Origin: Thiotrichaceae bacterium
Lineage (GTDB): Bacteria; Pseudomonadota; Gammaproteobacteria; Thiotrichales; Thiotrichaceae
Length of the DNA: 32,819 nt
Assembly (NCBI GenBank): GCA_015490895.1
Contig: WFWY01000149.1
Span: forward strand, 1 to 32,819
Direction: 5' to 3'
A model generated the notes under the pieces. It made no database searches. It saw only the letters and a list, made by a program, of their open reading frames with translations, and was not told the origin of the DNA. Positions 4,301 to 25,532 of the stretch are shown here, one piece after another. The position numbers were made by a program, and so were the translations under genes. Within the stretch, counting starts at the first letter, position 1. Every line of letters starts with the position of its first letter.

Positions 4301-6910
4301 ATGATTATATCCCGACGATTACTTTTTTTACTCGTTCTGCTGGTCATCCTAATACTGTCCATTTTTATGGCACGGCAGGCGCTAACATCAAAGCGGGGGG
4401 CGTTCTATGTTAAGGAATTCTGGGTCGAAAAACGTGCCAACGGGGAGGAAGAGCCTCGTATGCAAGCCTACCCGGTGACCGGTCTGAACTATAAATCAGG
4501 CCTGCGCCGCAGCACAACACAGAAAGGAGGTGTCTTCAAATACAAGGAGGGCAAGGATATTCTGTTTTCCATCGGTACGCTGAATATCGGTATTGCCAAA
4601 GGACAGCCAGAAATTACCCAGGAGTCCTTTCACGCAATAAAAAGTAAAAACCTGGCATACCTGCTCTATGCCCTGGATGAAGATGGTAACAGAGATAACG
4701 GTATACAAATTACGGCAAACAGCATCCCCCAGTCGGGACTGGATATTGACCTGTCTTTACCGGTAGATGAGTTTACAAAAAAACTCACCCAAAAACTGAC
4801 CCAAAGTGGTTACTTCACTCTACAGCTCAGGGATGGAAGATCACTACCAGTCTCTGGCCTTCATTTCACATCAGGCATCGAAGTCGGGAAAACCACCGCA
4901 CAGGGAGAATTCACTTACCAGCAAAACAAGAAAATTACTTTTAGCGTCAATAAAACCGATATCGATACGATTCGGGGGGAACTGACACTCCACCCAGACA
5001 GCTTTGACCCCCCCATTACACACAACCTGCACCAATATTTACTCTCAGTGGATGAAGATGCAAACACAGATAACGGTATCCAACTATCAACCATTGCAGA
5101 ATCCTTCCAGGTTGATTTTTCCCTGCCTCGTGAACAGTTTGAGCATGCTCTGGCCAAAGCCCTGAACCGGGTAAACCGCCAGCCTGTGCCCTTTTTCTCT
5201 CCTGTGCTAGGTATTAATGTTGAAGCAGCACAGGCTGAAGCGGATACGGTTGGGCAGCCCATGCCTTTTGTCGACATCTTCCGTACCGCACGACCCTTTC
5301 AGGAGTTTTCAGAAGAAGGTGTACTTTACGATGATAACGGCTGGCCGGTTGAGATCCCCCAGGGGAAGAAAGTCTATACCCTGATTTTACAGAGTCTTCC
5401 AGAAGGTGCCATTCCCTATGGACACTATACCGTTCTTTATGATGGTGTTGGCACATTAGCTTATGATGGTGTCGCAAAACGTATCGATTTTACCGCCAAT
5501 AAAGATATTATTGATATCAACCCGAAAAACTCAACCGTTAACCGCCTGATCTTGCGTATCACAGATACCAGCAAAGACGACCCGATCCGCAATATCCGCA
5601 TCATCATGCCGGGTGGAATTTGTGAAGGTATGCCCCTGCTGCGCGTGGATAATGACAGTGAATGTGCTATCGGGCAATACCGCTCTTTTGAGAGCATGCT
5701 GCAAGACCGTAACATGATTGTATTTAACCCGGACTACCTGCGAGTACTGAAAAACTTTCGGGTATTACGTATGATGAACCTGATGGAGGCCAGTCAGCAC
5801 ATCCCCAAATCCTGCTACCAGTTTAAAGACGACGATTTTCGGGACTGTGTCCTGCAACCTCTTACCTGGGATATGCGTGCCAAAATGACTGATGCGGTAT
5901 GGGGAGGCTCGCACCGCACCGATGCCACACTGAAGCATGGCGTCCCCATTGAGGTACTGGTAAAACTTGCCAATACGCTAAAAGCAGAGCCCTGGTTTAC
6001 CATTCCACATCATGCTGATGATGACTACGTAGAAGAATTCGCTGACTATGTTGCGACAGAGCTGGATAAAACATTAAAAGCCTGGGTTGAATACAGCAAT
6101 GAAACCTGGAATGACCGCTTTTGGGGAACCTATTACGTGCGCTATAAAGGCCGCCTGATGGAACTGGATGAAGATAAAAACCCGTTTCGGGAAGGTTATC
6201 GTTTTTATGCCCGGCGTGCTGTCGAAATCTTCAAAATATGGGAAGAATCTTTTGAGGACACCGGGCGCCTGATGCGCGTTGCAGGCAGCTACCAGAATTC
6301 GACTGACCTCTCCCGCAATATCCTGGAATATGAAGATGCCCACGAACATATTGATGCACTGGCTATCGCACCCTATTTCCATGCCTGTAGTACACGACAA
6401 CACCGTGAATGCAAGAACCTGCTCACTGTTACCCAGCTACTACCCGAGGTAAAAAGTGTCGATGATATTTTTGAAGCACTACATAACCCGGCTGACCCTT
6501 ATGGGGTTCCTGCCACCATAAAACTCATTCACAAGCAGGCTAAAATTGCCAAAGAGTTTAATATAGCGCTTGTGGCTTACGAAGGTGGACAACATCTGGC
6601 GGTAAACTGGGCAGACAAGGGGCGCTCACAAAAGCAAAAAGAGCGCCTTAGCCAGCTCTTTAAAGAAGCCAACGAAGACGCCCGTATGGGTGAGATTTAT
6701 ACCGAACTGCTTAATAGCTGGAAAGAGGCGGGTGGCACAGTATTTAACGTCTTCAATATGCCCCAGACCTGGCACCGCTGGGGTTCATGGGGAATCAAAA
6801 CACACCTGAATCAACCACGAGAAGAGGCTGTCAAATACAATGCGCTAATGATGTTTCAGGAACAGCAGGGTGAATGCTGGTGGCCCGAATGCCACTCCCT
6901 GGATAAATGA
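4301..6910 (+). CDS. Membrane-anchored protein with tandem surface-type domains and a glycosidase-like C-terminal barrel
   Basis: No gene name is recognised. The 869 residues divide into three parts. Residues 5-23 are one N-terminal hydrophobic anchor. Two related domains follow at about 55-155 and 180-285; each begins V(T/S)GL..(K/T)SG, continues TT..G.F.Y...K.I.FS, and ends in a LLY/LLS-(L/V)DEDxNxDNGIQ motif, a pattern known from repeats in bacterial surface proteins. From about 410 to the end is a domain with YSNETWN (Glu601) and AYEGGQH (Glu761). Proteins with such motif pairs resemble clan GH-A glycosidases, in which two glutamates act as acid/base and nucleophile. SCYQF..DCVLQ, CSTRQHRECKN and GECWWPEC add several cysteines, suggesting an exported protein with disulfides. 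Substrate is unknown. It is flanked by djlA and hflD without an evident operon partner. Confidence 0.7.
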   Translation: MIISRRLLFLLVLLVILILSIFMARQALTSKRGAFYVKEFWVEKRANGEEEPRMQAYPVTGLNYKSGLRRSTTQKGGVFKYKEGKDILFSIGTLNIGIAKGQPEITQESFHAIKSKNLAYLLYALDEDGNRDNGIQITANSIPQSGLDIDLSLPVDEFTKKLTQKLTQSGYFTLQLRDGRSLPVSGLHFTSGIEVGKTTAQGEFTYQQNKKITFSVNKTDIDTIRGELTLHPDSFDPPITHNLHQYLLSVDEDANTDNGIQLSTIAESFQVDFSLPREQFEHALAKALNRVNRQPVPFFSPVLGINVEAAQAEADTVGQPMPFVDIFRTARPFQEFSEEGVLYDDNGWPVEIPQGKKVYTLILQSLPEGAIPYGHYTVLYDGVGTLAYDGVAKRIDFTANKDIIDINPKNSTVNRLILRITDTSKDDPIRNIRIIMPGGICEGMPLLRVDNDSECAIGQYRSFESMLQDRNMIVFNPDYLRVLKNFRVLRMMNLMEASQHIPKSCYQFKDDDFRDCVLQPLTWDMRAKMTDAVWGGSHRTDATLKHGVPIEVLVKLANTLKAEPWFTIPHHADDDYVEEFADYVATELDKTLKAWVEYSNETWNDRFWGTYYVRYKGRLMELDEDKNPFREGYRFYARRAVEIFKIWEESFEDTGRLMRVAGSYQNSTDLSRNILEYEDAHEHIDALAIAPYFHACSTRQHRECKNLLTVTQLLPEVKSVDDIFEALHNPADPYGVPATIKLIHKQAKIAKEFNIALVAYEGGQHLAVNWADKGRSQKQKERLSQLFKEANEDARMGEIYTELLNSWKEAGGTVFNVFNMPQTWHRWGSWGIKTHLNQPREEAVKYNALMMFQEQQGECWWPECHSLDK

Positions 6911-8263: not shown

Positions 8264-8722
8264 ATGGGTAACCCCAAAAATGTAACAGACACTAGCAACC
8301 ACCCTTATTTCAAAATCTTTAGTGGTGCTTTTAGCGGAGTACTGAGGTGGGAGCAACTTGATGAGCTATGGCAGCGTGTCAGACAGGATGCCGGTGACTG
8401 GTATATCTATGCCGTAGGCGACGCACCTCCTACATCACCCGCATCCAGCGAGCAACTGCATCAGTTTATTCCAGAAATTGATGCATTACTACATAAAGAG
8501 CATGATGAAGACTACTGCGGCATTGTCTACGCCGATAATCGCGAAGCACCTCGTTTCATCAAGATTTTCGACCCCAATAATATTGGCACCAGCTGTAGTA
8601 GCGGCCACCATCCCCCACCCTTACCAGGCTGGATACTCTCCAAAATGAAGCCGATCGACTTACCCAATGCGTTTCCCCAGACCGGCAGCCGCAAACGCTG
8701 GTGGAGCACAATTTTCAGGTAA
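8264..8722 (+). CDS. Conserved hypothetical protein (152 aa)
   Basis: I recognise this as a gammaproteobacterial conserved hypothetical type but know no function. It starts MGNPKNVTDTSNHPYFKIF and contains GVLRWEQLDELWQRV, WYIYAVGDAPP (about 46-56), a Gln/His-rich helix, a YCGIVYADN strand segment and FIKIFDPNNIGTSCSSG, then a Pro-rich stretch and an Arg/Trp-rich end. There is no signal peptide or membrane helix, so it is likely cytosolic. AAGGAAA sits eight bases before the ATG. A small GGCTG/CAGCC hairpin lies in the 120-base spacer after the VOC gene. It converges with chrA, leaving 57 bases between stops. Confidence 0.8.
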   Translation: MGNPKNVTDTSNHPYFKIFSGAFSGVLRWEQLDELWQRVRQDAGDWYIYAVGDAPPTSPASSEQLHQFIPEIDALLHKEHDEDYCGIVYADNREAPRFIKIFDPNNIGTSCSSGHHPPPLPGWILSKMKPIDLPNAFPQTGSRKRWWSTIFR

Positions 8723-24857: not shown

Positions 24858-25532
24858 TTGTCGTTAGCTGCAAGCTGGTGGATACTCGCCAGCGTGCAGT
24901 TCGCCTATCCTCTGCTGTATGATCACGCCGGTATTGGAAAAAATATTACCCTTTACGCACCGCATAACAAAATTAAACCTAACTTTGATCAAAGTCCGCG
25001 CGAGGAACATATCGCCCTGTTTAAAGGAATAGTTAGCAGCATTCATCAGCAAGGCAAGGGACTGGAAACGCTCAGCTACCAAACACACCATGGTCAGCGC
25101 ACCCCATTACTGACTAAAAGCGAAATTATCCATCTGACCGATGTCGCCCTGTTATTAACGACCTTAAAGAAAGTAATTATGGTTACGTTGCTGATCTGGA
25201 TGATTGCAACAGCCATCGCCATAAAACAACACCGCTTGCTTCCCAGGCCTCGCATCCTTCTTGCTTATGCCGCTTTATTGCCAGTAGTTACTCTAATCAT
25301 CTTGCTGGCAGGCGCTGAGAAAGTCTTTTACGACTTTCATACACTGCTCTTTCCCGCAGATCACCAGTGGTTCTTTTACTACGAAGAGTCGCTGATGAGC
25401 ATGATGATGAAAGCGCCTGATTTATTTGCCTATATTGCCATTATGCTCGTTGTTCTGGGTATCTTGCTAACAGGGTTCTTACTCTGGGGGATGCAACAGC
25501 TACTACGCGCACTCAGCACCCGCCATGCCTGA
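24858..25532 (+). CDS. DUF1461/TIGR01906-like integral membrane protein
   Basis: The 224-residue frame has four hydrophobic helices (about 3-21, 106-123, 133-152, 189-215) and a soluble loop after the first. EIIHLTDVALLLTTLKKVI (about 89-107) carries the H-x-x-DV motif, and FYDFHTLLFPADHQWFFYYEESL resembles the second conserved loop; both are typical of the DUF1461 family, whose function is unknown. The only standard start in frame is TTG 24858, without a Shine-Dalgarno, yet the frame is open upstream to 24780 and reads KQPLKHAHTFILLLTSFIL, an excellent basic-plus-hydrophobic N-terminus. The true start is therefore doubtful (see findings). The stop overlaps the next gene by eight bases, so the two are probably cotranslated. 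Confidence 0.75.
   Translation: MSLAASWWILASVQFAYPLLYDHAGIGKNITLYAPHNKIKPNFDQSPREEHIALFKGIVSSIHQQGKGLETLSYQTHHGQRTPLLTKSEIIHLTDVALLLTTLKKVIMVTLLIWMIATAIAIKQHRLLPRPRILLAYAALLPVVTLIILLAGAEKVFYDFHTLLFPADHQWFFYYEESLMSMMMKAPDLFAYIAIMLVVLGILLTGFLLWGMQQLLRALSTRHA

Follow-up and report, generated by a model that had tools for sequence, protein, structure and literature searches.

Some bacterial glycosidases act on the exopolysaccharide of the cell that produces them. PslG, which we take to be the glycoside hydrolase family 39 (GH39) endoglycosidase of the Psl exopolysaccharide cluster, is a glycosyl hydrolase encoded together with exopolysaccharide synthesis genes, and the rhizobial glycanases ExoK and ExsH are GH16-type enzymes with an unrelated jelly-roll fold. 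According to PMC9075953, loss of PslG leads to long cell chains. PMC1403797 presents ExoK, ExsH and PlyA as glycanases of the producer's own polymer, with ExsH secreted by PrsDE and PlyA attached to the surface; processing was unaffected by a plyA mutation and affected by plyB. Here we describe a gene of the window, i.e. the whole stretch of DNA that was analysed, 32,819 nucleotides of contig WFWY01000149.1 from a Thiotrichaceae bacterium (assembly GCA_015490895.1). The gene (4301..6910, + strand, as are all its features given below) is complete and encodes 869 amino acids that comprise an anchor, two SslE/AcfD-type repeats and a clan GH-A-like catalytic domain. With a probability of roughly 0.6, we read the product as an exported, membrane-anchored, retaining endo-glycosidase of the GH-A type, which belongs to a family unnamed in the libraries searched and trims a surface polysaccharide made by the cell itself. 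This reading builds on the computed domain layout, a conserved pair of glutamates, the predicted fold, the distribution of the family and its gene linkage elsewhere.

The gene forms a single open frame, inside which the longest reverse-strand frame listed has 120 amino acids. Full-length orthologues were found in all five other genomes of the host genus (56-75% identity), and a DUF489 gene, which we take to be hflD, follows the orthologue in all six genomes of the genus, window included. Because of this conservation at full length with the same downstream gene, we regard the gene as real. Scans for promoters and terminators around it gave results no better than shuffles. At the N-terminus, where a helix had been proposed, residues 7-24 (4319..4372) read as strongly hydrophobic in the translation and the gene passes a crude hydropathy rule, making this segment a putative signal anchor or uncleaved export signal. 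Two repeats follow, at residues 55-139 (4463..4717) and 180-264 (4838..5092). They align with 35% identity over 85 amino acids at an expectation value (E) of 6e-19; judged from this alignment, their likeness is homology and not chance, as had been claimed for the two tandem domains. Both carry the DEDxNxDNGIQ motif reported for them: DEDGNRDNGIQ at residues 126-136 (4676..4708), with NGIQ invariant in six orthologues, and DEDANTDNGIQ at residues 251-261 (5051..5083), with NGI invariant in the same comparison. As a guess, these loops resemble calcium-binding loops.

The remainder of the protein was modelled with AlphaFold2 from a 30-row alignment, which comprised 30 of 36 references with the window protein standing in for L001; the set excludes the duplicate pair L026 and L027, the split L025 and two edge pieces, from L005 and L007. 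Residues 296-869 (5186..6907) were modelled as a (beta/alpha)8 barrel at a predicted local distance difference test score (pLDDT) of 91.6 and a predicted template-modelling score (pTM) of 0.93. By our own reading of the DSSP string, the eight barrel strands lie at 9-11, 193-195, 268-273, 299-303, 362-367, 391-394, 461-469 and 520-522 in domain numbering, to which 295 is added for protein numbering. A barrel domain had been expected from residue 410 onwards. The barrel is there in the model; its start is not, because strand 1 (residues 304-306) comes ahead of an inserted beta-sandwich, so that the domain begins near residue 300. The sandwich, at domain positions ~54-154 (residues ~349-449; 5345..5647), lies between strands 1 and 2 and has two glycines that are invariant in the 30-row alignment.

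The top solved structures matching the model are clan GH-A enzymes. Foldseek placed a GH51 arabinofuranosidase first (E 1.6e-8). With a second aligner, GH51 led at Z 24.7 (2vrq, root-mean-square deviation 3.2 Å over 305 residues, 14% identity), followed by GH79 at Z 22.5 (5bwi, 13% identity) and by GH10, GH39 and GH5 near Z 20; the lack of a closer fold in these structure lists excludes nothing. The preliminary description had named Glu601 in YSNETWN and Glu761 in AYEGGQH as candidate catalytic residues to be sought at strands 4 and 7. Both residues stand at these positions. In the model, Glu601 (domain 306; 6101..6103), preceded by Asn600, lies three residues past the end of strand 4, and Glu761 (domain 466; 6581..6583) lies within strand 7. 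The predicted model thus combines the marks of clan GH-A: a barrel, an Asn-Glu acid/base at strand 4 and a Glu at strand 7.

Conservation was quantified in 120 distinct domains, each 350 amino acids or longer, which remained of 155 aligned hits after removal of exact duplicates and shorter pieces; the set holds, for seven host-family genomes, the copies that were listed and, for other genomes, only the best-scoring ones. Asn600, Glu601, Tyr760, Gly763 and Arg490 were each present in 120/120 domains and Glu761 in 119/120, so that the two glutamates proved conserved as well as placed at strands 4 and 7 of the model. The model and this conservation strongly suggest a catalytic barrel of the clan GH-A type, presumably that of a retaining hydrolase of glycosides, in which the acid/base would be Glu601 and the nucleophile Glu761. 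The catalytic assignment follows from these two lines, sequence mapping onto GH51 having failed. The anatomy and the enzyme class given in the preliminary description, a barrel-like glycosidase, are thereby supported by model, fold matches and conservation.

Which glycosidase is it? The window protein has no glycosidase match in Pfam or NCBIfam, and 0/30 members match any glycosidase model in these two libraries at E 0.1, in agreement with the earlier statement that no family could be named. The best match of a profile search of the PDB was to an unrelated protein at E 0.32, and no account of the enzyme family was found in the open-licence literature searched. Within the Pfam, NCBIfam and PDB sequence libraries, the family is apparently unnamed. 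The GH51 alpha-L-arabinofuranosidases are its best structural match, and an Asn-Glu pair, presumably their acid/base site, is invariant in the seven GH51 rows that we aligned (L144 and 6 of 12 listed plasmid hits). They differ in the low identity noted above and in the beta-sandwich between strands 1 and 2, which belongs to the window family. GH51 membership was rejected, with 0/30 in Pfam and an hhalign probability of 0.3% against those seven rows, a shallow alignment; in this profile comparison a stretch before strand 3 paired plausibly and the catalytic glutamates were not paired. GH39 membership was likewise rejected (0/30 in Pfam; hhalign probability 0.1% against six rows, drawn from 6 of 12 loci, in a shallow and partly poor alignment). 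The GH79 beta-glucuronidases and heparanases, also of clan GH-A, form the second structural group; they too differ from the window protein in their low identity, and 0/30 members match GH79 in Pfam.

The self-processing glycanases are analogues of the window family in its proposed role. Like PslG, several relatives elsewhere are encoded with exopolysaccharide synthesis genes; unlike PslG, the family scores 0.1% against GH39 and the window gene lies outside any synthesis cluster. ExsH, ExoK and PlyA are endoglycanases cutting the producer's own polymer, which is the role we propose here, and the RTX tails carried by several relatives of the window family recall secreted glycanases such as ExsH. 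The jelly-roll of ExoK and ExsH contrasts with the barrel of the window family.

The N-terminal repeats have a different affinity. NCBIfam NF037974 (SslE/AcfD) matches the protein at E 4.4e-8, with the best stretch at residues 55-122, and a profile of the six orthologues matches residues 283-352 of the structurally solved AcfD homologue 23px at E 2.1e-5. The likeness to SslE/AcfD (YghJ), a lipoprotein metalloprotease, concerns the N-terminal module, whereas the M60 zinc protease domain is absent here. A reading as an M60 protease, which the NCBIfam match might suggest, was rejected: there is no Pfam M60 match, and the NCBIfam score of 31.4 bits lies far below the family's cut-off of 800. According to PMC8881592, the N-terminal sequence of SslE had been identified in no proteins other than SslE and its homologues; measured against that statement, the joining of an SslE-type module to a glycosidase barrel looks new. 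The N-terminal pair was modelled at a pLDDT of 72.9 only, and its fold matches were weak: the best was Z 3.9 to the NTE domain of a sugar transporter, with transthyretin- and CnaB-like folds also returned, and the best Foldseek match had E 0.055. Because of this low pLDDT and these weak matches, we claim no fold for the pair.

Related N-terminal sequence, weaker and partly over the second repeat only, was found in the same-genus L031 and in L100, L132, L106 and L110, sister copies from four genomes of three other genera. NCBIfam confirmed the SslE likeness for L100 and L132, not for L106. Since these sister copies come from other genera, the layout of repeats plus barrel is probably older than the genus. 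The N-terminal part of the sister copy L132 (L132:2311-4884) matches, besides SslE, an anammox S-layer glycoprotein model (weak, E 9e-5), hinting that the repeat may be common to surface-layer proteins. A CueO-like multicopper oxidase of the own genome (L139:1-2157, contig C75) also has an SslE/AcfD-type repeat near its N-terminus, and the repeat may therefore be a general surface module in the host.

The barrel family is universal in the host family as sampled. Its profile matched all 63 sampled genomes of the host GTDB family (46/46 of good quality; 8/8 genera), with 3-15 matches each, where several matches may be pieces of a single gene; an order-level search drew the same 63 genomes. Outside, matches were sparse: 11/369 in the class sample, or 8/366 after removal of three host-family genomes, and 13/398 in the phylum sample, or 12/397 without the host. 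Relatives were found in Leucothrix pacifica, Thiothrix caldifontis, Planctomycetota and Verrucomicrobiota. In a FastTree tree of the 120 domains, the host-family copies fell into a clade of 72 rows and a separate clade of nine (support 100 for each). Of the seven genomes for which the listed copies were retrieved, six were represented in each of two groups within the larger clade. The group of the window protein (6 rows, support 100) stood beside single copies from G028, G037, G052 and G055, at a support of 88 only. As tree groups span genera and hflD follows the orthologue throughout the genus, the retention of these copies is old.

The own genome (2.78 Mb in 171 contigs) has seven complete copies, each of which, by our own reading, starts with a segment that is hydrophobic or resembles a signal; a lipobox-like LAAC is present in one of them. 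Two sister copies there carry carbohydrate-binding CBM9 domains and one carries a bacterial immunoglobulin domain. Across the family, the crude hydropathy rule located a hydrophobic segment upstream of the domain in 102/120; the 18 without one include the own-genome copy L003 and the contig-edge copy L008. Several relatives elsewhere are RTX-tailed, and a 2302-residue protein on a Paracoccus marcusii plasmid (L077:10468-17373) combines GH16, the GH-A-like domain of this family and RTX repeats. Judged from their sequences, these accessory modules (CBM9, RTX repeats and, in one fusion, GH16) would fit extracellular work on carbohydrate.

In the 12 non-host genomes of the phylum sample, carriers from other proteobacterial families, with the priming sugar transferase PF02397 as partner and a limit of 20 kb on the same contig, linkage of the family gene was found in 9/12 genomes (2.6-17.5 kb; the misses were G327, G338 and G401). 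Linkage is expected in 0.36 genomes, given 2-9 transferase places in each, and the chance of at least nine is ~2e-12 under independence. One such cluster (L074) holds the priming transferase, two rhamnose-type sugar-nucleotide genes, a WecG-type transferase, an O-antigen ligase/polymerase-type gene and two glycosyltransferases. We opened 15 of 25 plasmid records with relatives (all except H5, H6, H11, H14, H18-H20 and H23-H25), 13 of which have gene tables (H1 and H4 have none). In 9/13 plasmid loci (H7, H9, H10, H12, H13, H15, H16, H17, H21) the relative lies among polysaccharide-synthesis genes, namely glycosyltransferase, flippase, chain-length or sugar-nucleotide genes, and H2 does so partly. 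Of these, H13 is plasmid pTB2 of Roseobacter denitrificans. At two Rhodobacterales-type loci, L068 and L090, the relative is near a large luciferase-like monooxygenase protein and glycosyltransferases; in L068 the monooxygenase protein bears AMP-binding and carrier domains and a phosphopantetheinyl transferase is nearby, and L090 has a polyketide synthase. This unusual combination of genes hints at a glycan modified with a lipid or polyketide.

Several observations weigh against a role on a self-made polymer. Eight of the nine linked genomes belong to one family and are not independent, so that the true strength of the linkage is less than the ~2e-12 suggests. The plasmid loci H3, H8 and H22 are outside synthesis clusters, with one glycosyltransferase ~5 kb off in H22. 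In the host family, PF02397 was found within 20 kb on the same contig for 0/45 match places (G000, G006, G028, G052, G055), the closest being ~21 kb away in G006; host-family copies are mostly dispersed, and in the fragmented own genome no family match shares a contig with PF02397. At 12 loci from Planctomycetota, Verrucomicrobiota and similar phyla, no polysaccharide-synthesis family ranks in the 25 most frequent of 107 Pfam families, and two sulfatases are among 90 neighbouring frames, which were picked by length and are in part spurious. Location in an exopolysaccharide cluster was thus found for relatives (9/12 genomes) and not for the window gene or the 45 host-family match places. Since polysaccharide genes stand beside neither the window gene nor the host-family copies, the link to a polymer of the cell's own making is drawn solely by analogy.

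These neighbourhoods also bear on the strongest competing explanation, a foraging glycosidase that digests surrounding polysaccharide (algal, biofilm or animal mucus) whose sugars are eaten. The CBM9 domains on two own-genome sister copies would suit such an enzyme, as would the occurrence of relatives in Planctomycetota and Verrucomicrobiota, phyla with many polysaccharide degraders, and the two sulfatases at loci of this type. Two Paracoccus plasmid relatives are moreover near transporter genes, one of them for a galactofuranose ATP-binding cassette (ABC) transporter. However, every sampled host-family genome keeps several copies, in groups older than genera; none of the frames next to the window gene was recognised as encoding uptake or another hydrolase; and the linkage elsewhere, at 9/13 opened plasmid loci and in 9/12 genomes, is to synthesis genes. 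We consider foraging unlikely, at odds of about one in five. A second alternative keeps the active site and changes its outcome: a transglycosylase would join or branch the cell's own sheath polysaccharide instead of hydrolysing it. Retaining GH-A enzymes can transglycosylate, the evidence from fold, residues and distribution is the same, and several ancient copies suit a structural role. No sequence feature, however, discriminates transfer from hydrolysis, and we rate this alternative as less probable still than foraging. That the protein is a non-catalytic, polysaccharide-binding surface protein on an old hydrolase barrel, as a surface scaffold of SslE-type repeats plus anchor and the lost nucleophile of the distant relative L073 might suggest, is very improbable, since the catalytic pair is kept in 119/120 distinct domains and a dead or binding-only barrel is on that account unlikely for the family as a whole. 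L073 itself (L073:8856-10916, - strand, genome G338), which carries Ala in place of the nucleophile and forms a long-branch row of the tree, is perhaps a binding-only offshoot; no priming transferase lies within 300 kb of it in that genome.

Our preferred reading remains an enzyme that trims the polymer of its own cell, a step argued from the relatives near synthesis genes, the old retention of multiple copies and the analogues PslG, ExoK, ExsH and PlyA. The cell's own exopolysaccharide had been named earlier as one possible substrate, and the relatives among exopolysaccharide genes lend this indirect support. In this proposal, the N-terminal hydrophobic segment would direct export and tether the protein to the membrane, which would place it in the envelope, and the two SslE/AcfD-type repeats may hold, position or space the enzyme at the cell surface. 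The barrel would then cleave inside the chains of a polysaccharide made by the cell, such as slime, sheath or holdfast. Cutting of the chains would set polymer length and allow filaments to grow and separate.

The surroundings of the gene itself agree with the earlier remark that it has no carbohydrate-gene neighbours, which holds for the window as far as it was read. By library match, the nearby genes are djlA, DUF489 and a chromate transporter, and neighbouring frames presumably encode a triosephosphate isomerase, an aminotransferase and a glyoxalase-like protein. A frame of 152 amino acids (8264-8722, +) matches nothing in Pfam or NCBIfam at E 0.001. Further away, part of a frame at 24858-25532 (+) matches the lipoprotein intramolecular transacylase Lit at E 7e-11.

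The analysis thus adds a multi-phylum enzyme family with an intact catalytic pair and without a Pfam or NCBIfam match, present in all 63 sampled host-family genomes. To the preliminary description it further adds the distinctive insertion, the SslE partner module and the exopolysaccharide linkage elsewhere. The best-known genus of the host family forms sheathed filaments and rosettes, and the genes are candidates for trimming of the sheath or slime coat during filament growth. The 2011 Thiothrix nivea genome paper (PMC3368414) called the structure of the sheath layers unknown. Enzymes that trim such a sheath or slime were not found in print in the open-licence literature. Later chemical work reportedly describes a glucosamine-containing sheath polymer. 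Culturable Rhodobacterales and a Shinella strain have relatives among their exopolysaccharide genes, which makes the activity testable in tractable bacteria. More tentatively, at a likelihood well below even, the several ancient copies may be sheath- or slime-maturing glycanases or transglycosylases of filamentous sulfur bacteria, forming an unclassified clan GH-A family marked by the beta-sandwich between strands 1 and 2, in which the SslE-type repeats would be the surface holder of one orthologous group. If this is true, the family would offer named enzymes to test for bacterial sheath assembly and filament separation.

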